Positions 13,736-52,796 of a DNA stretch of 61,547 bases are shown here, one piece after another. The number at the start of each line of letters is the position of its first letter. Position 1 is the first letter of the stretch. Under the pieces are notes generated by a model. That model saw only the letters and a program-made list of their open reading frames with translations. It was not told the origin of the DNA and ran no database searches. The position numbers were made by a program, and so were the translations under genes. The stretch lies in NCBI GenBank assembly GCA_036003045.1, contig DASYSS010000058.1:1-61547 (forward strand), given 5' to 3'. The DNA is from Gemmatimonadaceae bacterium (GTDB lineage: Bacteria; Gemmatimonadota; Gemmatimonadetes; Gemmatimonadales; Gemmatimonadaceae).

Positions 13736-14740
13736 ATGGATCTCCGCGAACGCCTCCAAATCGCGCTGGGTGACGCTTACCGAATCGAACGCGAGCTCGG
13801 TGGGGGAGCCATGTCGCGCGTGTTCGTCGCGACGGACACGACGCTGGGACGGACCGTCGTCATCAAGACGCTGCCGCCGGCGCTCGCGGCGGGGCTGAGC
13901 GCTGAGCGGTTCCGCCGCGAGATCCGCCTCTTGGCGGCGCTCACGCATCCCAACATCGTGCCGATTCTTTCGGCCGGCGAACGCGACGGGCTGCTCTACT
14001 ACATCATGCCGTACATCACGGCGGAGTCGCTGCGCGCGCGTCTGGTTCGCGAGCCGACGTTGGCCCTGCCCGACGCGCTCAACGTCGCGATCGAGATCGC
14101 TGAAGCGCTCGACTACGCGCATCGGCAGGGCATCGTCCACCGCGACATCAAGCCGGAGAACATTCTCCTCGCCGACAACCACGCGATCATTTCCGACTTC
14201 GGGATCGCGCGCGCGCTCGCTCGCGCCGGCGAAGGCGAGCGGCTCACGGCGACCGGCATGTCGGTGGGAACGCCGGGCTACATGAGCCCCGAGCAGGCGG
14301 CCGGTGAGCTCGACGTCGACGGCCGCGCCGACACGTACGCGTTGGGTTGCGTGCTGTACGAGATGGTCGCCGGTTCGCCGCCGTTCACGGGAAAGACCGC
14401 CGCCGCGGTGATCGCCGCGCACATGGCGACGCCCGTGCCGTCGGTGCGAGCGCTTCGGTCGACAGCGCCGCAAAAACTCGACGAGCTCTTGAATCGCTCG
14501 ATGGCGAAATCGCCCGACGAGCGCTATCCGACAGCCGCGGCGTTCGTTCAGGCGTTGCGGCAGGTCGAAGCACGAACGCGCCGTCCGGTGATCTCGCGGA
14601 CGCCCGTTCCGGCGCCGACTCCGGTCGCGACGCCCGTCGTCGTGCCGGCGAAAGCCAGCCGCACACCGTGGTATTTCGTCGCGGGCGCGATGGTGGTGAT
14701 CGCCGCGCTCGTCGCGGCGCTCGCGATGCGCGGCCACTGA
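13736..14740 (+). CDS. Pkn-type serine/threonine protein kinase with C-terminal membrane anchor
   Basis: 334 aa. The kinase domain spans residues ~15-270: Gly-rich loop ELGGGAMSRVFVA, Lys in VVIK, catalytic loop HRDIKPENILL, DFGIAR, G-T-P-G-Y-M-S-P-E-Q, all active-type. A Pro/Val-rich juxtamembrane linker (about 280-305) and a single TM helix (WYFVAGAMVVIAALVAALAM) end the protein, with only a few residues outside, so it has no sensor domain of its own. No Shine-Dalgarno is evident before the ATG. It is convergent with the HisC-like gene, with a short hairpin between. Confidence 0.88.
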   Translation: MDLRERLQIALGDAYRIERELGGGAMSRVFVATDTTLGRTVVIKTLPPALAAGLSAERFRREIRLLAALTHPNIVPILSAGERDGLLYYIMPYITAESLRARLVREPTLALPDALNVAIEIAEALDYAHRQGIVHRDIKPENILLADNHAIISDFGIARALARAGEGERLTATGMSVGTPGYMSPEQAAGELDVDGRADTYALGCVLYEMVAGSPPFTGKTAAAVIAAHMATPVPSVRALRSTAPQKLDELLNRSMAKSPDERYPTAAAFVQALRQVEARTRRPVISRTPVPAPTPVATPVVVPAKASRTPWYFVAGAMVVIAALVAALAMRGH

Positions 14741-16208: not shown

Positions 16209-16901
16209 ATGTTCGGTGCAATCGTCGTCGGCCTGCTGCTTTCGGCTCTCGCGGCCGGAGCCATCTTCGTCGTGCGTGCCTGGCTGCAGAGCCGCGGCGC
16301 GCGCTCGCGCGAGGTTCCGCCGCTCTTCGTCATACCGCGGGCGGTCGCCGGGGTGGAGCCCATCATGGACGCCGCCGTGGTCTCCGCGGCGCCCGCGCAC
16401 CCGACGCACGACGCGCGTTCGTCCAGGCCGCTTCGTGGTTCGGGACTTCCGAACTTCGGCGAGCGCGTGGTATTCGACGACAACCGATTCGACGATGACG
16501 ACGAGATCCCGGTGCGCGGCGCCAACTCCGAGACAGTCCGATTCCTGCGACCGGGCGAAGAGCCGGTGCAGATTCTCCCCGGCCGCCTCGAGGTTCTCTC
16601 CGGCGAGCCAAAGCACCGCGAGATTCGTTTCGTTCGCGCCCCGGGCGAACCCCCCGAGCTGATCCTCGGACGCGAGGCCGGCCGTTCGCCGCAGACCGTC
16701 GCCCTCCATTCCGACACGGTGAGTCGCCGCCACGCGCGATTCGCATACTCGAATGGCCGGTGGGCGGTCAGGAACTTGTCGCGAACGAATCCCGTCGTCG
16801 TCAACGACGAGCGGATCATGGACGACTCGATCGAACGGCCGCTCGCCGATGGCGATCGCCTCGAGCTCGGCGAAGTGGTTCTCCGCTTCCGGTCGCGGTA
16901 G
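16209..16901 (+). CDS. Membrane-anchored FHA-domain protein
   Basis: 230 aa from the ATG at 16209; in-frame ATGs at 16167 and 16101 would add 14 or 36 residues. Residues 2-25 are a TM helix (FGAIVVGLLLSALAAGAIFVV), followed by an acidic/Pro linker and a C-terminal FHA domain (about 140-228). The FHA domain carries the pThr-binding signature: I-L-G-R-E, S-R-R-H-A-R-F, and N-L-S-R-T-N-P-V-V-V-N. FHA domains read phosphothreonine on kinase substrates. The kinase gene starts 48 bases downstream, so the pair is probably an operon in which the FHA protein docks at the membrane with the phosphorylated kinase or its targets. Confidence 0.85.
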   Translation: MFGAIVVGLLLSALAAGAIFVVRAWLQSRGARSREVPPLFVIPRAVAGVEPIMDAAVVSAAPAHPTHDARSSRPLRGSGLPNFGERVVFDDNRFDDDDEIPVRGANSETVRFLRPGEEPVQILPGRLEVLSGEPKHREIRFVRAPGEPPELILGREAGRSPQTVALHSDTVSRRHARFAYSNGRWAVRNLSRTNPVVVNDERIMDDSIERPLADGDRLELGEVVLRFRSR

Positions 16902-16949
16902 CGAAGCCGGTCCCATGGACGTCGTGGTCGTCTCCCTGCCTCGCATCCG

Positions 16950-19715
16950 ATGAGCTCCGAGCGAGTTCCCCCGGGACTATCGGCGCTCGAACCGGCGTAC
17001 GAAGTCATCCGCGAGATCGGGCACGGCGGAACGTCCGTCGTCTATCTCGCCCGCGAGCGTTCGTCCGACGCCGAAGTCGCGATCAAGCTCATTCGCTCGA
17101 AGTACCTCGGCGACGAAGAGGCGATGGGGCGCTTCGCGCGAGAAGCGCGATTCCTCGAGCGGCTCGTGCACCCGAACATCGTGCGCGTGCGCGACGTGCT
17201 GGAATTGGGCGACGCGGGTCTGGCGATCGTGATGGCGCACGTGCCGGGTCGCACGCTCAAAGAGCTGATTCGCGACGAACGGCGGCTCGAGCCGCAGCGG
17301 GTTGAGCGCTTCACGCGCGACATCGCGCGTGCGCTCGGTGCCGCGCACGCGATGGGAATCGTCCACCGCGACGTAAAGCCGGAAAACGTTTTCATCGACG
17401 CCGACGATCGGCCGCTCCTCGCGGACTTTGGTCTCGCGCGGTCGATGACGAACGACTCGCAGCTCACGATGGCCGGCGTCGCCATCGGCACGCCGGCGTA
17501 CATGCCGCCGGAGCAGATCGAGGGCGCCGCTCTCGATGCTCGCGGCGACGTGTACAGCCTCGGGCTCGTCGCGTGGGAGATGTTGACCGGCCATCGTCCG
17601 TGGGAAGGCGAGAGCCTCTACGCGATTCTCTACCACCAGCGCTACGAGCAGCTCCCGGACGTCCGCGACCTGCGCGACGACGTTTCCGATACGCTGGGCG
17701 ACACGATCGCCGTCGCCATCGAGAAGAATCCCGCGATGCGCTGGCAGAGCGCGCACGAGATGATCGAGGCGCTCGACGGGGCCGCGCCGCCTCGCCGTGC
17801 GATGCGCCGAGCGCCATTGAACGCGGACACCGTGCGATTCATGCGGCCGGCGGCCGGGGCCCCACGTTCGGACGCGCCCATCGTCGGCGGGGTGGAATCT
17901 TCGGCCTCGCATCCGCCGTTGCCGCTCCCCGCGGTTGCGCCCGCGCACGCGGCGGCGCCGCCGCAGCTCACGGGGGGGGCGCCGCGACAAGAGGTTCCGT
18001 TCGTCGAACTCGGCCCGGCGTCGTTGCCTCGGTCGACGGGGGGGGGCGAGAACGAGTCGCCGTTCATGAGCCCGGCCGCGTTTTCGACGCTCGCCGCGGA
18101 ACTCGAGGCACAAGACGAAGAGCCGCGCGCCGGGACACCGCGGAGATACCTCATCGCGGTCGGCGGCATCGCCGCGGCCGCCACGCTCGTGCTGGTCGCG
18201 GCGAATCTGCAAGGGCGGTCGAACGACGCTCACCGCGAGCCTGTGCTCGTCTCGAGCGGATTCGCGGTGAACGACACGGCCGGCAAGACGCTGCCGGGGG
18301 GAAGGCCGCGTCCCAACGCCCCGCCGCCGACCGCTACGCCCGCGACCGACGCGGCGTCGCGACCGGTCACGCCCGCCGCGGGCGTCGCATCCTCGGCGGT
18401 GCCGCCGAGTTTGCCGGAATCGCGAAAGTCGCCGCCACCGACGCGTCTCCCCGTCGCGCAGCAATCGCTCGAGACGACGAACAACAACTCCAAGAGCGCC
18501 GCGAAGAAGGACGACAAGCCAAAGAACGCGTCCACCAAGAGCGCCGAGACCGGCAGGATCGTCGACAAACCGGGCGCCGACAAAACGACGTCGCCCGCCG
18601 ACAAGGCCGCGCCGACACCGGTGCCGGCCGCGCCTCCTCCGCTTCCAGCTTTGGCCGCTTCGCGCGTCGTCGTGGCGGCGGGCGGACTGCATTCGTGCAT
18701 GCTCAACGCCGAGGGACGCGCGTATTGCTGGGGCGGAAACGACCGCGGCCAACTCGGCGCGGGCGGCGCGAACTCCGTCGCGACGCCGCTGGCCGTCGCA
18801 GGCGACGTTCGCTTCACGACGATCGCGGCCGGCCTCTCGCACAGCTGCGCGATCGCGCGCGGCGGAGGCGCGTGGTGTTGGGGTGAGAACGAGCGCGGTC
18901 AGCTCGGCGACCGGTCCACGATGGCGCATCAGGCCCCGATGCGCGTGGCCGATTCTCGGATGTTCGTCGCGATCGACGTCGGCGCGGCGCACACGTGCGC
19001 CATCGACAGCCAAGGCGAGGCGCTCTGCTGGGGCTCGAATTCACACGGCCAGCTTGGCACCGAAACGATGACGACGGAGCTGAGCGCTCCGGCCGCGGTG
19101 GGCGGCGATCGCCGCTACTCGTCTATTTCCCTCGGCTGGAATTTCACGTGCGGGCTCGACAACGGCCGCGCGTTCTGCTGGGGTGAAAACGCGAACGGAC
19201 AGCTCGGCGACGGCACGATCAGCGACCGGCGCGGCCCCGTCGCGGTGGCTGGGGGTTTGACGTTCCGCGCGATCTCGGCGGGTGCGACGCACGCCTGCGG
19301 CATCACGCCGCGCGGCGAGGCGTACTGCTGGGGCAACAACTACGGCGGGCAGCTGGGCGACGGAACTCGCGTGAGCCGCGAGCTTCCCACCCCCGTGAAG
19401 ACGTCGCTGCGCTTCGTCGCCATCGCGACCGGCGCGCTGCACACCTGTGCGTTGACCGGCGACGGCGAAGCGTTCTGCTGGGGACGCGACAACTACGGGC
19501 AGCTTGGCAACGGCGGAAGCACTCAGGATTCGGCGGAGCCGGTCCGCGTCGTTGGCGACCACTCGTTCGCGACGATCCGCGCGTTCGGGTCGCACACCTG
19601 CGCGACGACGCCGTCGGGCGACGCGTTCTGCTGGGGCTACAACCTCGACGGCCAGTTGGGAGATGGCTCCCGCGTGAACCGCTCGCGGCCGATGTACGTG
19701 GAGCCGCCTGGATGA
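16950..19715 (+). CDS. Ser/Thr kinase fused to an extracytoplasmic seven-bladed RCC1 propeller
   Basis: 921 aa. The cytosolic kinase (about 12-270) is active-type: IGHGGTSVVYLA, VAIK, HRDVKPENV, DFGLAR, G-T-P-A-Y-M-P-P-E-Q. A linker follows, then one TM helix (YLIAVGGIAAAATLVLVAANL, about 398-418). A long Pro/Thr/Lys-rich stalk (about 430-570) leads to seven RCC1 repeats to the C-terminus, each marked by C-W-G-x-N/D-x-x-G-Q-L-G. Every blade also has a Cys in H-S/T-C, giving 14 regularly spaced cysteines, consistent with an oxidising exterior. The propeller is the likely sensor or ligand platform. The stop overlaps or lies close to the next lipoprotein start. Kinase-RCC1 fusions are unusual. 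Confidence 0.9.
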   Translation: MSSERVPPGLSALEPAYEVIREIGHGGTSVVYLARERSSDAEVAIKLIRSKYLGDEEAMGRFAREARFLERLVHPNIVRVRDVLELGDAGLAIVMAHVPGRTLKELIRDERRLEPQRVERFTRDIARALGAAHAMGIVHRDVKPENVFIDADDRPLLADFGLARSMTNDSQLTMAGVAIGTPAYMPPEQIEGAALDARGDVYSLGLVAWEMLTGHRPWEGESLYAILYHQRYEQLPDVRDLRDDVSDTLGDTIAVAIEKNPAMRWQSAHEMIEALDGAAPPRRAMRRAPLNADTVRFMRPAAGAPRSDAPIVGGVESSASHPPLPLPAVAPAHAAAPPQLTGGAPRQEVPFVELGPASLPRSTGGGENESPFMSPAAFSTLAAELEAQDEEPRAGTPRRYLIAVGGIAAAATLVLVAANLQGRSNDAHREPVLVSSGFAVNDTAGKTLPGGRPRPNAPPPTATPATDAASRPVTPAAGVASSAVPPSLPESRKSPPPTRLPVAQQSLETTNNNSKSAAKKDDKPKNASTKSAETGRIVDKPGADKTTSPADKAAPTPVPAAPPPLPALAASRVVVAAGGLHSCMLNAEGRAYCWGGNDRGQLGAGGANSVATPLAVAGDVRFTTIAAGLSHSCAIARGGGAWCWGENERGQLGDRSTMAHQAPMRVADSRMFVAIDVGAAHTCAIDSQGEALCWGSNSHGQLGTETMTTELSAPAAVGGDRRYSSISLGWNFTCGLDNGRAFCWGENANGQLGDGTISDRRGPVAVAGGLTFRAISAGATHACGITPRGEAYCWGNNYGGQLGDGTRVSRELPTPVKTSLRFVAIATGALHTCALTGDGEAFCWGRDNYGQLGNGGSTQDSAEPVRVVGDHSFATIRAFGSHTCATTPSGDAFCWGYNLDGQLGDGSRVNRSRPMYVEPPG

Positions 19716-19759
19716 CGGTGCGCCGACCGGTGGCATTTGAGAATTTTCGGAAGTTCGGA

Positions 19760-21652
19760 ATGCGGCGAATGGCGGTTTGGTCATTGGCGGCCGCGGTCGC
19801 GGCGTGCGCGGGCACGACGCCGGACCAGGTATCGGGTCCGCAGATCGCGTCGGTATCGATCACGCCGCCGACGACGACTCTGTCGATTGGCTCACAGGCT
19901 CCGCTTCAGGCGTCCGTGCGAGACGCGTCGGGCAACTCGATCAGCGGCGCCGACGTCTTTTGGTCGGTGCAGGACGCGACCGTCGCGACCGTGTCGAGTG
20001 CCGGAGTCGTGACCGGACTCGCGATCGGGTCGACTCAAGTCGCGGCCAGCTCGAACGGCAAGTCAGGGATCGCGACGATCACCGTGCAGAAGATACCTGT
20101 CTCCAGCGTGGTGGTCACTCCGCCGCACGTCGACGCATCGCCCGGTGGAAAGGCGCCGCTCAGCGCCACGGCGTACGACGCGGCTCAGAATCCGCTCACC
20201 GACCGGTTCATCTCGTGGAGCACGAGCAACGCCGCCGTGGCGACGGTCGATGCGAACGGGATCATGACGGCCACCGGCCAGGGCACGGCGACCATCACAG
20301 CAACGTCCGAGGGCAAGAGCGGGGTCGCCACGGTTTCCGTGTCGCAAGCCGCGGTCTCTCTCGTGACGGTGGCTCCGTCGCCGCTCTCCATGTCGGTCGG
20401 GCAGACCACACAGCTCACGGCGACGCTCACGGACAGCGCCGGCAACCTGTTGAGCGGCCGCACGGTGACGTGGGCCAGCTCCAACACCGCGGTGGCCACG
20501 GTGTCGTCACAGGGCGTCGTGACGGCCGTCGCCGCGGGCAGCACGTCGATCACGGCGACGAGCGAAGGGAAGAACGGCAGCGCCGCGCTGACGATCTCGA
20601 ACGTCGCGGTGGGTTCCGTCGCCGTGCAGCCGCAAGGGCCGGCGATCTTGGTCGGCGCAAACGTTCAGCTGAGCGCCACCGTCCGCGACGTGAACGGCGT
20701 GATCGTAACGAACCGAGTCGTCACTTGGTCGTCGAGCTCCGCCGCGGTGGCGGTCGTGTCGTCGTCGGGTGTCGTGACCGGCGTCGGCGGTGGAACGGCG
20801 ACGATCACCGCCACGAGCGAAGGAAAGTCCGGCACCACGTCGGTGACGGTGACGGCGCTCCCCGTGGCGACCGTGACGATTCAGCCGCCCAGCCCCGACA
20901 CGGTGTTCATCGGCTACACGACGCAATTGACGGCGGTCACCAAGGACTCTCTCGGGGGCGTGCTGACGGGTCGCGCGGTGACGTGGCATTCGACCAACAC
21001 GGCGATCGCGACGGTCGACGCGAACGGTCTCGTGACCGGAGTGGCCGCCGGTTCGACGTCCATCACGGCGACGAGCGAAGGCAAGACCGGTACGGCGACC
21101 CTCGTCTCGATCAAGGCACCGGTGGGAAGCGTCGTCGTCGCTCCGGCGTCGGACTCGGTGAGCACCAGCGGAACGCTTCAGCTCAGAGCGACCGTCACCG
21201 ACGTGAAGGGAACGGTTGTCACCGACCGCGCGATCGCATGGGCAAGCTTGCAGGGTCCGATCGCAACGATCTCGCCGAACAACGGCGCGACGACGAACGT
21301 CGACGGCAAGGCGAAGGGCACGGCGAGCATCGTGGCCACGTCGGAGACCAAGGCGGACACCGCGACAGTGAACGTCGTTGCCGCGGTGAAAACGGTCACG
21401 GTCTCGCCGCTGATCGGAAGCCTCAGCCTGGCCACCCATCCGACGATTCAACTGACCGCGACGTGCAAAGACGCGGGCAACACCACGGTCACAGGTCGCG
21501 TGGTCACGTGGACGTCGAGCAATCCCGCCGCCGCGACGGTTGACGCGAACGGATTGGTGACCGCGAAGGGAGCGGGCATCGCGAACATCACCGCGACAGC
21601 GGTGTTCGACGGCGTGACGTCCGTCGCGTCCGTCATCACCGTTACTCCGTAG
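19760..21652 (+). CDS. Ig-like (BIG2-type) repeat lipoprotein, 7 repeats
   Basis: 630 aa from the ATG at 19760 (GGAAG 6 nt upstream; lipobox A-A-V-A-A-C directly behind). An ATG at 19712 overlapping the kinase stop is an alternative and suggests translational coupling. After the lipid anchor come seven ~85-aa repeats of the form P-V-x-S-V-x-V-x-P...Q-L-x-A-T-x-x-D...V-x-W-x-S-x-N-x-A-x-A-T-V...G-V-V-T-x-V-x-x-G-x-x-x-I-T-A-T-S-E-G-K. Such stalks place proteins away from the membrane or mediate adhesion. No enzymatic module is present. Repeats 1-4 and 5-7 correspond to the ends of the next gene's product. Confidence 0.87.
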   Translation: MRRMAVWSLAAAVAACAGTTPDQVSGPQIASVSITPPTTTLSIGSQAPLQASVRDASGNSISGADVFWSVQDATVATVSSAGVVTGLAIGSTQVAASSNGKSGIATITVQKIPVSSVVVTPPHVDASPGGKAPLSATAYDAAQNPLTDRFISWSTSNAAVATVDANGIMTATGQGTATITATSEGKSGVATVSVSQAAVSLVTVAPSPLSMSVGQTTQLTATLTDSAGNLLSGRTVTWASSNTAVATVSSQGVVTAVAAGSTSITATSEGKNGSAALTISNVAVGSVAVQPQGPAILVGANVQLSATVRDVNGVIVTNRVVTWSSSSAAVAVVSSSGVVTGVGGGTATITATSEGKSGTTSVTVTALPVATVTIQPPSPDTVFIGYTTQLTAVTKDSLGGVLTGRAVTWHSTNTAIATVDANGLVTGVAAGSTSITATSEGKTGTATLVSIKAPVGSVVVAPASDSVSTSGTLQLRATVTDVKGTVVTDRAIAWASLQGPIATISPNNGATTNVDGKAKGTASIVATSETKADTATVNVVAAVKTVTVSPLIGSLSLATHPTIQLTATCKDAGNTTVTGRVVTWTSSNPAAATVDANGLVTAKGAGIANITATAVFDGVTSVASVITVTP

Positions 21653-24600
21653 ATGACGCGCCGGCGGCCCTGGTCTGCGGGCCTTCTTGCGCCCACGTCG
21701 CGACGGCTGGCCTCGCTAGCCGCGGTCGCGGTCGCCGCGTGCACCATGTCCACCGAGGTCACTCCGACCGCCGACGTCGCGTCGGTGGCGGTCAATCCGC
21801 CCACGACATCGGTGTCCGTCGGCGCGCAGGTTCCCCTACAGGTCGTCGTTCAGGATTTCTCGGGCAAGCCGATCACCGGCAACAGCGTGTTCTGGTCCGT
21901 GCGCGATCCAAACATCGCCTCGATCTCCAGCGCGGGCGTCGTGACCGGAGTGTCGGCCGGGTCGACGGAGATTGCCGCGAGCGTGAACGGCAAGTCGGGC
22001 ATCGCGACGATCACCGTGCAGCGAGAGCCGGTGTCGAGCGTCGTCGTGACGCCGCCACAACTCAACCTCGTCCCCGGCGCGCACTTTCAACTCACGGCAA
22101 CCGCATACGACGCCGCGCAAAATCCGCTGTCCGGCCGCACGATCACCTGGAACACGAGTAGCGCGGCAATAGCCACCGTCGACGGAAACGGCATGATGAC
22201 CGCCGTCGCTCCCGGCTCGGCGAGCATCACGGCCACGGCGGAGGGAAAGATCGGCGTCACGGCGATCACCGTGTCGCAGTCGCCGGTCGCGACGGTCACC
22301 GTGTCGCCCACACCGCTCTCGATGTCGGTCGGCCAGGTCACTCAACTCGCCGCGACGCTGACCGACAACCTCGGCAACGTGCTCAACGGACGCACGGTGG
22401 CCTGGACGAGCTCCAACACGGGCATCGCGACGGTGTCCGACCAAGGCGTCGTGACAGCGACGGCATCGGGGACCGCGACGATCACCGCGACGAGCGAAGG
22501 AAAGACCGGCACGGCGGAGGTCACGGTCACGAACGTCGCGGTGGGATCCGTCGCGGTGCTACCTCAGACTCCCACGATCGTCGTGGGCGCCAGCGTTCAA
22601 CTGAGCGTCACCGTGCGCGACGTGAATGGCGCCGTCGTCACGAATCGCGTGGTGACATGGGCGTCGAGCAACGCGAACGTCGCGACGGTGTCCACGTCGG
22701 GCGTCGTCACGGCGCTGACCCCCGGAACGGCGATCATCACGGCGACGAGCGAGCAAAAGTCGGGAACGACCTCGGTGACCGTGACGCCGGTTCCCGTCGC
22801 CACCGTCACGCTGTCGCCGGCCACCGCGAACATCCGCGTGACGGCGACGACGACGCTCACGCCGACGGTCAAGGACGCCAATGGCGTCGTCGTCACGAAC
22901 CGAATCATCGCCTGGACGACGAGTGATTCCACGCTGGCGACGGTGAGTTCATCCGGTGTCGTGACCGGCATCGCGCCGGGCACGGCGACCATCACCGCGA
23001 CCAGCGAAGGCAAGAGCGGGTCGTCGTCGATCAACGTCTCGAAGATTCCCGTCAGCACGGTGACAGTGTCGCCGCCGACCAAAGCCTTGCTCGTCAGTCA
23101 AACGGTCGCTCTCGCGACGACGGTCAAGGACAGCGTCGGAAATACGGTCACGGATCGAGTCGTGACCTGGAGCTCGAACAATCCCGCGGCGGCGACGGTG
23201 TCGGCTACCGGCTTGGTGACCGCCGTCGCGGCGGGCGCCGCGACGATCACCGCCACCAGCGAGACGAAGACCGGCACGAGCACGATCACCGTGTCGCCCG
23301 TTCCGGTTGCCAGCGTCGCCATTCAACCGCCCACGGCGAGCGTCACGATCGGCACGACAGCCCAGCTCACCGCGCTCACCAAAGACTCCATCGGCGGCGT
23401 CTTGAACGGCCGCGTCGTGGCGTGGGGCTCGAGCGATCCCACCACCGTGAGCGTCTCGTCGACCGGCTTGGTCTCGGCGCTGAAACTCGGCAGCGCGACG
23501 ATCACCGCGACAAGCGAGGGAAAGAACGGCACGTCGCTCGTGACCGTCGTCAAGGTTCCGGTCGCGAGCGTGACGGTGGCGCCCGCGAGCAAGGCGCTCC
23601 TGGTCACCGAGACCGTTACGCTCACGCCGACGGTCAAGGACAGCACCGGAACCGTCGTGACCGATCGCCCCGTGTCGTGGAGCTCGAACGCCACCGGCGT
23701 CGCGACGGTTTCACCGCTCGGCGTGGTCACAGCGGTCGCGCCGGGCACGGCGACGATTACGGCCACCAGCGAAACGAAGACCGGTACGAGCACGATCACC
23801 GTTTCGCCGATTCCGGTGGGCATCGTCGTCATGCAGCCGTCGCACGACAGCCTCACCATCAACACGTCGCGTCAATTTGCCGCCGTGACCGAAGATTCAC
23901 TCGGCCGAGTGCTGACCGGTCGAGTCGTGGCGTGGAGCTCGAGCGATCCGACGACAGCGAGCGTGTCGGCGACTGGACTCGTCACCGCGCTCAAGCTCGG
24001 CACGGCGACGATCACCGCGACGAGCGAGGGAAAGAACGGCACGTCGCCGGTCTTGGTGGCGAAGGTGCCGGTCGGAAGCGTGACCGTGGCACCTCCGACG
24101 AAGGCGCTCTTCGTCACTCAGACCGCGACGCTCGCGCCGACCGTGAAGGACAGTCTCGGCACCGTCGTGACCGATCGCATCGTTACGTGGGGCACGAGCA
24201 ACCCGGCGGTTGCCACCGTGTCGTCGAGCGGATTGGTGACGGCCGTCGCGCCTGGCACCGCGACCATCACGGCGACGAGTGAGACGAAGAGCGGGACCAG
24301 CACGATCACGGTCTCGCTCGTTCCGGTGAGCACCGTTACCGTTTCGCCGGCGAGCGTAGGAATTCGCGTGACCGCGGCGACTCAGCTGACGGCCGTCACC
24401 AGGGACTCGGTCGGCGGTGTGCTCAGCGGACGCGCGGTGACGTGGGGCTCGAGCGATCCGACGATCGCAACAGTGAGCTCGACCGGCTTGGTGGCGGGCG
24501 TCGTACCGGGCACGGTCACGATCACCGCCACGAGCGAAGGCAAGAGCGGCACATCGACCATCACCGTCACGAAGATCCCCGTCGGCAGCGTGACGGTGGC

Positions 24601-26647
24601 GCCGCCGGCCAAATCGCTCTTCGTCACCCAGTCGGTCGCTCTCACGGCCACGGTGAGGGACAGCGTGGGCACGATCGTCACGGACCGTGTCGTCACGTGG
24701 GGCTCGAGCAACCCCGCGGTCGCAACGGTGTCGACGGCCGGTCTCGTGACCGCGGTCGCGCCGGGGACGGCAACGATCACCGCGACGAGCGAGACGAAGA
24801 GCGGGACCAGCACGATCACCGTGTCGCTCGTCCCGGTCGCCTCAGTCGTCGTTTCTCCGCCGAGCGCCGGCATCCGTGTGTCGGCGACGACGCAGCTGGC
24901 CGCCGCCACGCTGGATTCCATCGGCGGCGTGTTGACCGGCCGCGTAGTGACGTGGGGCTCGAGTGACCCGACGATCGCGACGGTGAGCTCGAGCGGCTTG
25001 GTGACGGGGGTCGCGCCGGGCACGGCGACGGTTAGCGCGACGAGCGAAGGTAAGAGCGGGATCTCGACGATCACCGTGACGAAGATTCCGGTCGGCAGCG
25101 TGACGGTGGCGCCGCCGAGCAAGAACTTGCTCGTGACCCAGACCGTCGCGCTCACCGCGACCGTCCGCGATTCGACGGGCGCGATGGTGACGGATCGAGT
25201 CGTCACGTGGGGCTCGAACAACACCGCCGTCGCCACCGTGTCGACGGGCGGATTGGTGACGGCAGTCGGACCGGGCACGGCGACGATCACTGCGACGAGT
25301 GAGACGAAGAGCGGCACGAGCACCATCACGGTCTCGCTGGTGCCCGTGAGCACCGTCGTCGTACAGCCGCTTCAGGATACGCTCAACATCGGCGGAACCG
25401 CGCAGCTGACGGCCGTCACACTTGATTCGATCGGCGGCGTGTTGACCGGCCGCACCGTGACGTGGGGATCGAGCGATCCGACGACGGCGACCGTTTCGGC
25501 AACCGGCCTCGTGACGGCGATCAAAGCCGGTGGCGCGACGATCACGGCGACGAGCGAAGGAAAGAGCGGCCTTTCAACGATCACGGTGCTTCAGGTTCCC
25601 GTCGCGACGGTCACCGTGGCGCCGGTGTCGACGACGGTGACTGTCGGCAACACCACCGGCTTCACCGCCACCACTAAGGACGCGCAGGGGAACGTGCTCA
25701 CCGGGCGCTCGGTCACGTGGGGCTCGAACAACACGGCCGCGGCCACCGTGAACTCGTCGGGCGTCGCGACCGGCGTCGCGCCGGGCGCGGCGACGATCAC
25801 CGCAACGAGCGAAGGACAATCGGGCAGCGCGACTCTCACCGTCAATCCGGTCCCGGTCGCCACCGTCACGATCGCGCCGCCGAGCCCCGACACGGTGTTC
25901 ATCGGCTATACGACGCAACTCTCGGCGGTCACCAAGGACGGGAACGGAACGGTCCTCACCGGCCGCGTCGTAACCTGGCAATCGGACAATACGTCCGCTG
26001 CGACCGTGGACGCGACAGGCCTCGTCACGGGCGTGGCGGCCGGTGTGGCAAACATCACGGCGACGAGTGAAGGGAAGACGAATTCTGTGACGATGGTTTC
26101 CATGGTCGCCCCGGTGGGCAGCGTTGTCGTCGCGCCGGCGTCGGATTCGGTGACCACGGCCGGCACAAAGCAGCTGGCCGCTACCGTCAGAGACGTGAAG
26201 GGGACAGTCGTGACCGATCGCGTCGTCAGTTGGGCGAGTCTTCAGCCTCTCCTTGCCTCGGTGAGCCCGAGTACCGGGCCCACGACGATCGTGACTGGCG
26301 TCGGCCCAGGGCCGGCGTCGATCACGGCGTCGGCGGAGACCAAATTCGGGTCCTCGACGATCAAAGTGATACAGGCCGTCGTCACGGTCCAGATTTCGCC
26401 ACTATCTGCAACGCTGAGTCTGGCTACCACACCGACCGTACAGCTCTCGGCGACGTTGCTCGATGGATCGAGCGGGGCAATCGCCGGACGCACGGTCAGC
26501 TGGCAGTCGAGTGACCCTTCGATCGCGACGGTGAGTGCGAATGGTCTGGTGACTGCGAAGGCTGTTGGGACGGCGTCGATCACGGCGACGGCGGTCCTGG
26601 ATGGCGTGGTTTCGTCCGTGGCCACAGTGATAACGGTGACTCCCTGA
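21653..26647 (+). CDS. Giant Ig-like (BIG2-type) repeat lipoprotein, 19 repeats
   Basis: 1664 aa. The ATG directly follows the previous TAG. The lipobox is V-A-V-A-A-C (Cys at 30). I count 19 Ig-like repeats of ~85 aa with no other domain. Repeats 1-4 and 17-19 align with the seven repeats of the upstream paralogue; repeats 5-16 are an expanded core. Core repeats alternate two sub-types ending in T-S-E-T-K and T-S-E-G-K, so the duplication unit appears to be two repeats (~170 aa, ~510 bp). Repeats 10, 12 and 14 are nearly identical, which points to recent expansion or gene conversion. Predicted to be a very long surface filament anchored by lipid. Confidence 0.9.
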   Translation: MTRRRPWSAGLLAPTSRRLASLAAVAVAACTMSTEVTPTADVASVAVNPPTTSVSVGAQVPLQVVVQDFSGKPITGNSVFWSVRDPNIASISSAGVVTGVSAGSTEIAASVNGKSGIATITVQREPVSSVVVTPPQLNLVPGAHFQLTATAYDAAQNPLSGRTITWNTSSAAIATVDGNGMMTAVAPGSASITATAEGKIGVTAITVSQSPVATVTVSPTPLSMSVGQVTQLAATLTDNLGNVLNGRTVAWTSSNTGIATVSDQGVVTATASGTATITATSEGKTGTAEVTVTNVAVGSVAVLPQTPTIVVGASVQLSVTVRDVNGAVVTNRVVTWASSNANVATVSTSGVVTALTPGTAIITATSEQKSGTTSVTVTPVPVATVTLSPATANIRVTATTTLTPTVKDANGVVVTNRIIAWTTSDSTLATVSSSGVVTGIAPGTATITATSEGKSGSSSINVSKIPVSTVTVSPPTKALLVSQTVALATTVKDSVGNTVTDRVVTWSSNNPAAATVSATGLVTAVAAGAATITATSETKTGTSTITVSPVPVASVAIQPPTASVTIGTTAQLTALTKDSIGGVLNGRVVAWGSSDPTTVSVSSTGLVSALKLGSATITATSEGKNGTSLVTVVKVPVASVTVAPASKALLVTETVTLTPTVKDSTGTVVTDRPVSWSSNATGVATVSPLGVVTAVAPGTATITATSETKTGTSTITVSPIPVGIVVMQPSHDSLTINTSRQFAAVTEDSLGRVLTGRVVAWSSSDPTTASVSATGLVTALKLGTATITATSEGKNGTSPVLVAKVPVGSVTVAPPTKALFVTQTATLAPTVKDSLGTVVTDRIVTWGTSNPAVATVSSSGLVTAVAPGTATITATSETKSGTSTITVSLVPVSTVTVSPASVGIRVTAATQLTAVTRDSVGGVLSGRAVTWGSSDPTIATVSSTGLVAGVVPGTVTITATSEGKSGTSTITVTKIPVGSVTVAPPAKSLFVTQSVALTATVRDSVGTIVTDRVVTWGSSNPAVATVSTAGLVTAVAPGTATITATSETKSGTSTITVSLVPVASVVVSPPSAGIRVSATTQLAAATLDSIGGVLTGRVVTWGSSDPTIATVSSSGLVTGVAPGTATVSATSEGKSGISTITVTKIPVGSVTVAPPSKNLLVTQTVALTATVRDSTGAMVTDRVVTWGSNNTAVATVSTGGLVTAVGPGTATITATSETKSGTSTITVSLVPVSTVVVQPLQDTLNIGGTAQLTAVTLDSIGGVLTGRTVTWGSSDPTTATVSATGLVTAIKAGGATITATSEGKSGLSTITVLQVPVATVTVAPVSTTVTVGNTTGFTATTKDAQGNVLTGRSVTWGSNNTAAATVNSSGVATGVAPGAATITATSEGQSGSATLTVNPVPVATVTIAPPSPDTVFIGYTTQLSAVTKDGNGTVLTGRVVTWQSDNTSAATVDATGLVTGVAAGVANITATSEGKTNSVTMVSMVAPVGSVVVAPASDSVTTAGTKQLAATVRDVKGTVVTDRVVSWASLQPLLASVSPSTGPTTIVTGVGPGPASITASAETKFGSSTIKVIQAVVTVQISPLSATLSLATTPTVQLSATLLDGSSGAIAGRTVSWQSSDPSIATVSANGLVTAKAVGTASITATAVLDGVVSSVATVITVTP

Positions 26648-27747
26648 TGACTCGCAAACTCTGGCTGCCCATTCTGGGCTCGTTCCTCGCGCCGCTGGCT
26701 CTTTCGGGCCAGAGTTCGGCGCCTCTGCGAGAGCAACTCAAGTTGCGACCCGTCGCAGTGCGCATGCGTCCGGCTTGTCCTCCCTCGGTGACCCAGGCGT
26801 CGTCGCCGACCGAAGCGCAGCGACGCGACGCGCGTGAGATGGCGCAACGCGCGCGACAGTCCGCGATTCTCGGCGACGCGACCGCGGCGCTCAGCCAGTT
26901 GCGAGGCGCAGCCGGACTCGATCCGACCGACCCGAACCTCGCGTACGAGCTCGCGCGGGCGTACGAAGGCGCCGGCGTTCTCGCAAACGCCGCGACCGAG
27001 TATTGCCGGTTCTTGTCGCTCGCGCCGAGCGCCGCCGAGGCAGCCGACGTGCGCGCGCACGTGTCGACTCTGGTTCCACCGAAGCAAGACACCGTCGTGA
27101 CGATCGAGGGCACGGCATTCAGGCGCGGCGTGGATGCCTACGCCAAGGGACAGTGGAACGACGCGGAAGTCTTCTTCACGACCGTCGTCCGGATCGACTC
27201 GACGTCGGCCGACGCGTACTACGACCGCGGACTGGTGCGGGCGCTCCAGAATCGTCGCGACGGCGCGGCTGATGACTACGAGCGATATCTCCGCCTCCGC
27301 CCCGAAGCCACGGACCGTACGCTCGTCGTGGCTCGCATCAACGCCCTTCGGTCGCAGCGGCTGTCGGCGTCTCAGGCGTTCGGCCTGGGCGTGATCGTAC
27401 CCGGTGGCGGGCAGTTTTACACGAAGCGACCTGTGCGCGGCTTCCTTTCGCTCGCCGCCGTGGGCGCGGCCGCCGGATTCGCCCTTACCCAGAAGGACAA
27501 TCCCACCACGACGACCAAAACCGCGACCGATCCGTTCGGCAACAAGTACAGCTACTCCGAGACGACGACGCACAAGACACGGCCCTATCTCATCCCCGGC
27601 TTGGGCGTCGCCGGCGGCATCGCGCTCTACAGCGCGATCGAGGCGGCGTCGTATGCGCGTCGGCTTCGGAACGGGGCAACTCTCGCCCTGTCGGTCGCGC
27701 CAGCGGCGAACGGAGTGGGAGTCGTGGGGTCGTTCACGATTCCTTGA
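26647..27747 (+). CDS. TPR protein with C-terminal membrane segments (DUF5683-like)
   Basis: 366 aa. The ATG overlaps the preceding stop by one base. A signal-like N-terminus (LWLPILGSFLAPLALSGQ) is followed by TPR-type helices (about 55-240; e.g. DPTDPNLAYELARAYEGAG, STSADAYYDRGLVRALQNR). The C-terminal region has two hydrophobic segments: FGLGVIVPGGGQFY...FLSLAAVGAAAGFAL, typical of the G-x-G-Q-F-Y motif of DUF5683 proteins, and YLIPGLGVAGGIALYSAI. It is likely a periplasmic/inner-membrane scaffold for the Ig lipoproteins of the same operon. No enzymatic residues were recognised. Confidence 0.8.
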   Translation: MTRKLWLPILGSFLAPLALSGQSSAPLREQLKLRPVAVRMRPACPPSVTQASSPTEAQRRDAREMAQRARQSAILGDATAALSQLRGAAGLDPTDPNLAYELARAYEGAGVLANAATEYCRFLSLAPSAAEAADVRAHVSTLVPPKQDTVVTIEGTAFRRGVDAYAKGQWNDAEVFFTTVVRIDSTSADAYYDRGLVRALQNRRDGAADDYERYLRLRPEATDRTLVVARINALRSQRLSASQAFGLGVIVPGGGQFYTKRPVRGFLSLAAVGAAAGFALTQKDNPTTTTKTATDPFGNKYSYSETTTHKTRPYLIPGLGVAGGIALYSAIEAASYARRLRNGATLALSVAPAANGVGVVGSFTIP

Positions 27748-28130
27748 ACCGGGAAGCGAAACTGCCGAGGCCCGAAACCTCCGAGAACCGAAACTGCCAC
27801 GGGCCGAAACGGCCGAAACTCCGAGACGCCGAAACTGCCGAAGGCCGAAACCGCCAAGAGGCGAAGCTGCCGAGAGCCGAAAGGGCCAGAGGAAGCTCGC
27901 CTCTGACCTTCGCGCTCCCTTGCGGAACGGAGTGAGCGGCGAAGGACCTTTCACGATTGTTTGCCAACTCGAACGTGGGCGCGGGCCGAAGCGTTTGGCC
28001 GTTGGCAGTTTCGGCGTTCGGCCATTCTCGGCGTTCGACCGTTCCCGCCGTCTCGGATTTCGGCAGTTTCGGCGTTCGGCAGTTTCGGTCTTCGGCAGTT
28101 CTCGGCGCTCGGCCGTTTCGCCCCTCGTAC
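27744..28130. repeat. Head-to-head CCGAAACTGCCGA / TCGGCAGTTTCGG arrays
   Basis: The first half (27744-27890) is built of ccgaaactgccga-type words. The second half (27985-28130) is built of the complementary word tcggcagtttcgg. The gap thus forms a large imperfect inverted arrangement with a ~95-nt centre. This is the bulk of the 543-base space before the third Ig gene; no convincing gene lies within it. Confidence 0.75.
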
Positions 28131-28290
28131 CTAGTGCCGAGCCCGTCAGCCCGTGACTCCTCGGCGCCTTTCAGCGTCGTAGAAGCGGCGATCTCTAGCC
28201 AGGCTTTTGCAGAGTCTCAACGGCCAACCGCGACACGCCTCGCGGTTGAACCGCGCGTTGTTCGCGCATTTCGTCCCCGCCGCCGGAGAG

Positions 28291-31251
28291 ATGAGAGTCC
28301 TTCGAAGACAGCGCCTGTCCGCCGTTCCCGCGTGGGGGCGGCGCCTGGGAATCTGGGCCGCGACCGTCTTGGTCGCGGCCTGCGTGAGCGTGGCGACCGA
28401 CGTCGCGACGACGCTGAACGTGGGGTCCGTGTCGATCACACCGCCGACGACGACGTTGGCCGTCGGCACGCAGATCCCGCTCCAGGCGCTGGTGAAGGAT
28501 CCGAACGGCAAGACGCTTTCTGGCGCTAGCGTCTTCTGGTCGGTTCAGAATCCGAACGTCGCGACGATTTCCAGCGCCGGCATCGTCACCGGCGTGGCGC
28601 TCGGCTCGACGCAGGTCGCGGCGAGCGTGAACGGAAAATCGGGCGTCGCGACGATCACGGTCGAGAAGACACCCGTGGCGAGTGTCGTCGTCACGCCTCC
28701 GCACATCGAGGCAGCCCCCGGCACCCACGCCGCGCTCTCAGCCGCGACATACGACGCGGGGCAGAATCCTCTCAGCGGGCGGGCCGTCATCTGGAGCACG
28801 AGCAACGCGGGCGTCGCGACAGTAGACGCCAACGGATTGATGACCGCGGTCGCCACCGGAACGGCGACGATCACCGCGACGTGCGAAGGAAAGAACGGCT
28901 CGATGACGGTCACGGTCTCGCAGGCCGCGGTCGCCTCCGTCAACGTCACACCGGGCGCGCTCACCATGTCGGTCGGTCAGACGACGCAGTACCTGGCGAC
29001 TCTTCAGGACGCGGGCGGAAACGTCTTGAACGGACGCACGGTGACGTGGGCCAGCTCGAATACGAGCGTGGCGACGGTGTCGTCGTCAGGCCTAGTGACG
29101 GCCGTCGCTCAAGGCACGAGCACGATCACCGCGACGAGTGAAGGCAAGAACGGCACGGCCGCATTGACGGTGACGAACGTGGCCGTCGGGTCGGTCACGG
29201 TACAGCCGCAAGGGCCGACGATCTTGCAGAGCACGAGCGTGCAGCTGAACGCCGTCGTACGCGACGTGAACGGAAACGTCGTCACGGACCGCGCGGTGAC
29301 GTGGTCGTCGAGCAACTCGAGCCAGGCGATCGTGTCGACCAGTGGGATCGTGACCGGCTTGGCGCCGGGCACGGTGACCATCACCGCGACGAGTGAAGGA
29401 AAATCCGGCACGTCGTCGGTGACGGTGAGAGCGGTACCGGTCGGCAGCGTGACCGTATCGCCGGCGTCCGCGAGCATCCGCACCGGAAAGACGGCGAACT
29501 TCGACGCGACCGTGAAAGACTCGCTCGGCAACGTCGTCACGAACCGGGCGATCACCTGGGCGTCGAGCAACACGTCGATCGCCACGGTGAACGGCGGCGT
29601 GGTAACGGGCGTGGCAGCGGGCACTGCGACGATCACGGCGACCAGCGAAGGCAAGAGCGGAACGGCGACGATCAACGTCACGCCGATTCCCGTCGCGAGC
29701 GTGGTTGTATCGCCGACGACGAAATCGATGTTGGCCACGCAAACGTTCTCGCTCGGCGTGACGGTGACCGATTCGGCCGGAAACATCGTAACCGACCGCG
29801 TCGTGACGTGGGCGTCGAACAACAGTGCCGCGGCGACCGTGTCGGCGTCGGGCGTCGTGACGGCCGTTGCCCCAGGAACGGCGACGATCACCGCCACCAG
29901 CGAAGGCAAGAGCGGCTCGAGCACGATTACGGTGACGCCGGTTCCTGTCGCACTCGTGGTGGTGCAACCGCCGAGGGACAGCATCGGCGTCGGCGTCACG
30001 GTGCAACTCGCGGCGGTCACCGAGGATTCGGCGGGCGGCGTCCTCACCGGGCGCGTGGTGAGTTGGGGCTCGAGCAACCCCGCGGTGGCGACGGTCTCGT
30101 CGTCCGGTCTCGTAACGGGAGTCGCCTTGGGCACGGCGACGATCACGGCGAGCAGCGAAGGCAAGGGCGGCACCTCGACGATCACCGTCTATGTCCCGGT
30201 TGCATCGGTCACGGTCGCGCCTCCGACCGCGACGGCTGTCGTGACGGAGACCAAGCAGTTCACGGCCACGGCCAAGGACGCGCAGGGAAACACGCTCGTC
30301 GGCCGAACCATCACGTGGACCTCGAGCAGTCCCGCGGTCGCGACGGTGAATGGTTCCGGCTTGGCCACAGCCATCGCCGTGGGCACGACGACGATCACCG
30401 CGAAGAGCGAAGGGAAATCGGGCGCGGCGACACTCTCGGTCACCGTGGTGCCGGTCGCCAGCGTGTTGATCACGCCGTTGAGTCCCGACACGGTTTTCCT
30501 CGGCTACACGACGCAGTTGACCGCGGTCACCAAAGACTCCACGGGTGCCGTTCTCACGGGGCGCGTCGTCACGTGGCAGTCGGGCAATCCGGCCGTCGCG
30601 ACGGTGAGCGCCAGCGGTCTCGTGAGCGGACTGACGGCCGGAAATACGACTATTTCGGCGATCAGTGAGGGCAAGGGAGCCACGAACTCCCTCGTGTCGA
30701 TGCGCGCGCCGGTCGGAAACGTGTCGGTCGCTCCGACCACCGACTCGATCACGACCTCCGGTGCGTTGAGCACCCGCACCGTCTCGGCCACGGTGACGGA
30801 CGTGAAGGGAACCGTGGTGACCGACCGTCTCGTGACCTGGACGAGCAACCCCGGCTCCGTCGCGACGGTCGCGCCGAACAGCGGCGCGTCGACCACGGTC
30901 ACGGGAAAGGCGGTCGGCTCGGCGCGCGTCATCGCGACGTCGGAAGCCAAGGCCGACACGTCGAACATCAAGGTGATTCTCGCCGTGACCAGCGTTCAGA
31001 TCACCCCGGGCTCGGCGAACGTGAGTCTCACGACGAATCCGACGGTGCAGCTCACCGCGACGGCGAAGAACGGCGGGACGACCGTCACCGGACGAACGAT
31101 CACCTGGACGTCGAGTGATCCGACCATTGCCACGGTGTCGGCTACCGGACTGGTGACGGGCGTGAAGACCGGCGTCGCGACCATCAGCGCGCGCGTCGTG
31201 TTCGACGGCGTGACCTCGGCGACTCCGGCGACCGTCACCGTGAAGCCTTGA
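28291..31251 (+). CDS. Ig-like (BIG2-type) repeat lipoprotein, 11 repeats
   Basis: 986 aa from the ATG at 28291, which follows GGAGAG; a TTG at 28207 would add 28 residues with no benefit. The lipobox is T-V-L-V-A-A-C. Eleven ~85-aa Ig-like repeats follow. Repeats 1-4 match the first four of both upstream paralogues (for example GQNPLSGR in repeat 2, SMSVGQ-type in repeat 3, VQPQGPTIL in repeat 4). Repeats 9-11 match their last three (D-T-V-F-L-G-Y-T-T-Q-L-T-A-V-T-K-D; T-D-V-K-G-T-V-V-T-D-R; V-F-D-G-V-T-S). The central four are variable. It is separated from the TPR gene by the inverted array, so it may have its own promoter. Confidence 0.87.
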   Translation: MRVLRRQRLSAVPAWGRRLGIWAATVLVAACVSVATDVATTLNVGSVSITPPTTTLAVGTQIPLQALVKDPNGKTLSGASVFWSVQNPNVATISSAGIVTGVALGSTQVAASVNGKSGVATITVEKTPVASVVVTPPHIEAAPGTHAALSAATYDAGQNPLSGRAVIWSTSNAGVATVDANGLMTAVATGTATITATCEGKNGSMTVTVSQAAVASVNVTPGALTMSVGQTTQYLATLQDAGGNVLNGRTVTWASSNTSVATVSSSGLVTAVAQGTSTITATSEGKNGTAALTVTNVAVGSVTVQPQGPTILQSTSVQLNAVVRDVNGNVVTDRAVTWSSSNSSQAIVSTSGIVTGLAPGTVTITATSEGKSGTSSVTVRAVPVGSVTVSPASASIRTGKTANFDATVKDSLGNVVTNRAITWASSNTSIATVNGGVVTGVAAGTATITATSEGKSGTATINVTPIPVASVVVSPTTKSMLATQTFSLGVTVTDSAGNIVTDRVVTWASNNSAAATVSASGVVTAVAPGTATITATSEGKSGSSTITVTPVPVALVVVQPPRDSIGVGVTVQLAAVTEDSAGGVLTGRVVSWGSSNPAVATVSSSGLVTGVALGTATITASSEGKGGTSTITVYVPVASVTVAPPTATAVVTETKQFTATAKDAQGNTLVGRTITWTSSSPAVATVNGSGLATAIAVGTTTITAKSEGKSGAATLSVTVVPVASVLITPLSPDTVFLGYTTQLTAVTKDSTGAVLTGRVVTWQSGNPAVATVSASGLVSGLTAGNTTISAISEGKGATNSLVSMRAPVGNVSVAPTTDSITTSGALSTRTVSATVTDVKGTVVTDRLVTWTSNPGSVATVAPNSGASTTVTGKAVGSARVIATSEAKADTSNIKVILAVTSVQITPGSANVSLTTNPTVQLTATAKNGGTTVTGRTITWTSSDPTIATVSATGLVTGVKTGVATISARVVFDGVTSATPATVTVKP

Positions 31252-52494: not shown

Positions 52495-52796
52495 TACCTC
52501 GTGACCGTCGCTGACGGCGTCTCGAGTCAGTCCCGAAGCGAACATAGACAAACGCGAGCGTGAGGGCCAGCGCGTCGTCCGCTCGGATGGATCGGTCGCC
52601 GCGCAGTCCTCGGCGTTCCTCATCGCCCTCCACCGTCAAACACGCAGACGGATCGAGCGAGCCGACGCGGCCGCGCCGGCGAGCCCGACCGCTAGTCTAG
52701 CGCGCGCTCTCATCGCGTCATGTGCGGTGGCTCACATCCGGCGCTTCGCGGCCCCGCGCGCGAACGGAGCCGCGGCGACCTGCCCTCTTGTCCCTC

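Follow-up and report, generated by a model that had tools for sequence, protein, structure and literature searches.

A conserved gene cluster of Gemmatimonadota encodes a candidate receptor-kinase module with an RCC1 propeller, an FHA protein, Ig-repeat lipoproteins, and a TPR protein

Receptor Ser/Thr kinases paired with an FHA reader, some families adding a PP2C, are a kind of system already known. Among its closest described representatives, GarA and OdhI, considered here with PknB and PknG, are soluble FHA proteins, and the T6SS threonine phosphorylation pathway (PpkA, PppA, Fha, and TagQRST) brings together a kinase, a PP2C, an FHA protein, and an envelope lipoprotein arm in a way that resembles the module described below; to our knowledge, RCC1 and Ig repeats are absent from that pathway. 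The propeller of PknD is six-bladed and of the NHL type. PknD, from Mycobacterium tuberculosis, is a receptor Ser/Thr kinase whose sensor is an extracellular beta-propeller (PMC2877116).

The locus analyzed here lies in a contig of 61,547 nucleotides from a Gemmatimonadaceae bacterium (DASYSS010000058.1), the whole of which is referred to as the window. Six co-directional genes reported in a first-pass annotation of this DNA are present and near contiguous, as judged from open reading frames and Pfam domains:

16209..16901, + strand: membrane-anchored FHA protein of 230 residues, with an N-terminal TM helix, a flexible linker carrying a TVRFLR motif, and a C-terminal FHA domain (Pfam FHA, 5.8e-13)
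16950..19715, + strand: kinase::RCC1 receptor Ser/Thr kinase of 921 residues, with kinase domain at ~17-270, TM segment at ~400-418, and RCC1 domain at ~550-917 (Pfam Pkinase, 9.1e-51; RCC1, 4.9e-67)
17829..17831, + strand: Thr294 codon, a predicted phosphosite within the juxtamembrane motif DTVRFMR
19712..21652, + strand: Ig1, predicted lipoprotein of 646 residues with 7 Big_2 repeats (Pfam Big_2, 2e-69; lipobox pattern)
21653..26647, + strand: Ig2, predicted lipoprotein of 1664 residues with 18 Big_2 repeats by Pfam and 19 by a local model (Pfam Big_2, 4e-189; lipobox pattern)
26647..27747, + strand: TPR protein of 366 residues with C-terminal membrane helices and a beta-hairpin (Pfam TPR_9, 4.4e-12; alignment of 22; AlphaFold2 model)
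27748-28290: spacer of 543 bases between the TPR gene and Ig3, a dispersed repeat
28291..31251, + strand: Ig3, predicted lipoprotein of 986 residues from the ATG at 28291, with 10 Big_2 stretches (Pfam), an uncertain member of the module

The junctions are likewise those that had been described, with a gap of 48 bases between the FHA and kinase genes, a 4-base overlap of the kinase gene with Ig1, no gap between Ig1 and Ig2, a 1-base overlap of Ig2 with the TPR gene, and the 543-base spacer ahead of Ig3. A scan for promoters and terminators was uninformative (0 promoters; four terminators vs 9.5 expected). Further Ser/Thr kinases are encoded close by in the window at 13736-14740 and 49558-52623, and the kinase::RCC1 query has 73 matches in its own genome, mostly to other kinases.

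The window kinase and PknD have in common a receptor Ser/Thr kinase joined to an extracellular propeller, predicted as such for the former, but the propeller of the window kinase is of the RCC1 type rather than NHL, has seven Cys-paired blades, and its gene clusters with those of FHA, Ig, and TPR proteins. By sequence, UVR8 is the nearest solved relative of the propeller and PknB that of the kinase domain, and the PASTA kinases PknB and Stk1 offer the closest solved kinase domains; in contrast to these, the window kinase has no PASTA match in Pfam and scores 278 against a cut-off of 450 with the PknB_PASTA_kin model. A Thr motif near the FHA domain and the pairing of kinase with FHA protein recall GarA and OdhI, from which the window protein differs in having a TM helix and in scoring 28.7 bits with the OdhI model NF041660 (cut-off 200), and by score it is not TagH of the T6SS pathway either (29.9 bits vs a cut-off of 120.25). 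Two Gordonia proteins (L030 and L033) also combine kinase, TM segment, and RCC1 domain in one chain, but with these models no FHA or Ig neighbor was found beside them and their linkers carry no TVRF motif. Searches of the open-licence literature on RCC1 domains, combined with kinases, with FHA or Big_2 domains, or with Gemmatimonadetes, and on Gemmatimonas Ser/Thr kinases returned no description of such a system, which is no proof of novelty; the main text of a G. phototrophica transcriptome paper does not mention the module genes.

With the FHA and TPR families as markers for family-wide searches, the order FHA > kinase::RCC1 > Ig > TPR, with FHA genes single or paired and Ig genes numbering one to three, was found in 19 genomes from 11 genera of one family (G000, G002, G010, G016, G127, G165, G166, G168, G169, G178, G200, G239, G240, G241, G259, G262, G263, G264, and G267). 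The first-pass annotation had named a lack of conserved gene order among relatives as an outcome that would count against its proposal, and this is excluded; recurrence in 18 other genomes of the family places the neighborhood far from chance. Of 288 genomes of the order, 47 carry the TPR family by a search with a TPR alignment, and these 47 belong to a single family. Strong matches to kinase::RCC1 occur in two of the six genomes of the window's genus, its own included, and G002 of that genus has the full gene set; presence is thus patchy even at the genus level. Junctions across the family loci are mostly short overlaps or very short gaps, although the use of longest-ORF starts makes large overlaps upper limits, and those between kinase and Ig genes are very tight in many genera. 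The Ig part is not obligatory, since two loci (G196 and G226) keep FHA, kinase, and TPR genes with the Ig gene missing, and FHA and kinase::RCC1 pairs exist without adjacent Ig or TPR genes in G139, G179, G199, and a second locus of G197 (L220, L221, L223, and L225). The number of Ig genes per locus runs from 0 to 3. Longer proteins of ~660-815 residues that match the TPR family (L149-L153 and L158) lie mostly beside a Big_2 gene on the opposite strand, and the single-contig genome G167, of the same genus as G168 and G169, lacks both the TPR and the FHA families and is a possible natural negative.

Beyond this family (f1), other families of the class carry the same components in different orders, often with an added PP2C gene or an FHA::PP2C fusion. 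The order is TPR > Ig genes > FHA > kinase::RCC1 in G329 and G333 and FHA > PP2C > kinase::RCC1 > TPR > Ig in G366, G379, and G422, and G416 carries both kinase::RCC1 > TPR > Ig and kinase::RCC1 > Ig > TPR. Because the same parts stay together in permuted orders, we regard the cluster as a functional module and reject chance or frozen synteny as its explanation. Pfam finds PP2C domains in 4/4 proteins tested, namely the G366, G379, and G422 proteins encoded between FHA and kinase, and the FHA protein of G329 in its C-terminal half, whereas none is seen by Pfam in the window's own cluster; kinase, FHA protein, and PP2C make up a set of writer, reader, and eraser. Across 395 genomes sampled from the phylum, 65 have the TPR family, 70 the FHA family, and 54 both (Fisher p 8e-41 for co-occurrence, common descent uncorrected), and distances among FHA, kinase, RCC1, and TPR sequences at 20 loci correlate with Mantel r of 0.62-0.83, which fits genes traveling together and could also be produced by common descent alone. 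At L208 (8129-16660, G313), the gene of a 2843-residue protein with 20 DUF11 stretches separates the FHA gene from that of a small Big_2 protein. A search for such neighborhoods had been suggested for Gemmatimonadota and Acidobacteriota. In Gemmatimonadota the set recurs; for Acidobacteriota the search covered the TPR family, which had no match in a sample of 297 genomes taken from the same phylum as an Acidobacteria record, a search that lacked a positive control. The proposed six-gene make-up holds for a core of FHA, kinase::RCC1, Ig, and TPR genes, but the third Ig gene is optional, the Ig count varies, and other families add a PP2C.

Within the kinase::RCC1 proteins, the Hanks-type catalytic motifs K46 (VAIK), H139-R140-D141, and D159-F160-G161 are invariant in 22 aligned sequences. 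Between residues 266 and 577 the only invariant residue of these 22 is Thr294, in a TVRFxR motif cytoplasmic to the predicted TM segment; the linker of 310 residues between kinase and propeller is otherwise variable, with Arg299 kept in 20/22. The pattern T[VIM]x[FYLI] occurs in 20 of the 22 discovery linkers, where shuffles predict 1.55. Among 20 kinases left out of the defining alignment, a set whose independence is incomplete because members of family f1 are among them, 15 have it vs 0.8 expected; the 13 other kinases of the same genome yield no case vs 1.1 expected. The TVRF motif is missing from the linkers of G329, G333, and G328, which have FHA::PP2C-type or long FHA proteins, and from those of G139 and G313. 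TVRFxR fits the pThr-x-x-hydrophobic form commonly bound by FHA domains, and the phosphothreonine-binding residues of the FHA protein, R155, S172, H175, and N194 (GR, SxxH, and N), are invariant in 28 relatives. A model of the FHA protein has a helix at 2-29, a low-confidence linker with TVRFLR, and a beta fold at 121-228, and the matches to the protein include GarA structures, among them the phospho-Thr22 form of Rv1827. From these features together we infer that Thr294 is autophosphorylated and that the FHA protein docks on it, which makes Thr294 a predicted phosphosite and the conserved kinase and FHA pair a plausible phospho-relay by computation, much as had been proposed. A phosphosite of equal conservation in the linker of the FHA protein was considered and rejected, as an S/T-type motif is present there in only 18/28.

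The aligned relatives also share 14 invariant cysteines, all in the RCC1 domain and arranged two per blade ~10 residues apart (22 relatives), whereas the cytoplasmic part of the kinase averages 0.45 Cys per protein. This distribution places the propeller outside the cytoplasm and fits seven disulphide-stapled blades there, so that the extracytoplasmic location claimed for it earlier is now a prediction from the cysteine pattern. In the AlphaFold2 model of the TPR protein, membrane-type helices and a beta-hairpin come after a TPR solenoid, and Foldseek with this model returns generic TPR solenoids only; judging from an N-terminal hydrophobic segment, the TPR domain is probably extracytoplasmic.

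Ig1, Ig2, and Ig3 are ~64-65% identical over their first 300 residues and 58-65% identical over their last 330; what sets them apart is how many 85-residue repeats they carry internally. This pattern, in which the ends are conserved and the middle varies, suggests a rod that serves as a spacer and has specific ends. In all three, a VAAC lipobox ends a hydrophobic N-terminal signal in a simple pattern search. The spacer that precedes Ig3 is an imperfectly palindromic dispersed repeat, with units like CGAAACTGCCGA and dozens of further matches in the same genome. Since this repeat lies before it, Ig3 may be a separate unit outside the module; an Ig gene also follows the TPR gene in G165 and G166, but most loci have none at that place, and Ig3 as a core part is thus unsupported. 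Ig genes that are widespread without the kinase, another outcome held to count against the proposal, are a fact for Big_2 proteins in general, and Ig repeats alone are not diagnostic. As to whether kinase-RCC1 and multi-Ig proteins co-occur or are fused, conserved neighbors and Ig::RCC1 fusions were both found, but the fusions lack the kinase: the same genome encodes Big_2 and RCC1 fusions without a kinase at L095 (9286-11463, - strand) and L096 (10132-12618, - strand), and G444 joins RCC1 to Big_1 domains in a protein that has no kinase domain. Such fusions are compatible with an association of propeller and Ig repeats, although they are no proof of contact.

We consider it moderately likely, for the reading as a whole, that the cluster encodes a conserved receptor-kinase module of propeller receptor, Ig fiber, TPR protein, and FHA reader. 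The kinase would be an inner-membrane protein whose catalytic domain lies inside and whose disulphide-stapled, seven-bladed RCC1 propeller lies outside, and the long Ig-repeat lipoproteins, as candidate ligands of the propeller, would form the extracytoplasmic side together with the membrane-anchored TPR protein. By contact, tension, or the assembly state of the fiber, this side may set the state of the propeller and so constitute the signal that is sensed. The active kinase would then phosphorylate its own Thr294, and the FHA protein, encoded just upstream, would bind the phosphothreonine and hand the signal on to partners in the cytoplasm. The PP2C that other families encode beside FHA or fused to it would reset the phosphate mark.

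The same cluster could instead build and regulate a surface adhesin, with the kinase as controller of the Ig fiber, the TPR protein aiding export or assembly, and the kinase and FHA protein switching this process when the propeller binds some other ligand. TPR and Ig genes do adjoin in nearly all loci, even where the contig shows no kinase, and an Ig part of very variable length with conserved ends is as expected for a displayed fiber; RCC1 and Ig fused in one protein nevertheless point to direct association, and two loci keep FHA, kinase, and TPR genes without an Ig gene, and we regard this account as unlikely. More doubtful is a view of the FHA and kinase::RCC1 pair and the Ig and TPR surface pair as two independent units, neighbors by inherited synteny with no shared function. 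The former pair does exist without Ig and TPR genes, and Big_2 proteins are common without a kinase, but the parts stay together despite rearrangement of their order between families, and the very tight kinase/Ig junctions also speak against it; we judge it improbable. An anti-phage or T6SS-linked phosphorylation system was considered because PADLOC PD-T4-6 models match the kinase and the FHA protein weakly matches the TagH model. The PADLOC matches fall for the most part in the generic kinase domain, and none of the other members tested gave a match, so that a defense system as the main reading was rejected on domain-level matches, and the TagH score stays far below its cut-off; such a system seems very improbable.

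The receptor-kinase module is real, conserved, and apparently undescribed; the layout given by the first-pass annotation stands, and its mechanism is plausible in outline. We tentatively raise the possibility of a new receptor class, a contact or tension sensor of Gemmatimonadota in which a long Ig-repeat surface fiber would act through a TPR membrane adaptor on an RCC1-propeller kinase whose autophosphorylated juxtamembrane Thr would recruit a dedicated, membrane-bound FHA effector. It is rare for a bacterial receptor Ser/Thr kinase to be encoded together with a candidate ligand, reader, and eraser. The cluster described here, conserved yet open to rearrangement, offers candidates for all three in a large, little-studied phylum, and gives a precise phosphosite to examine.
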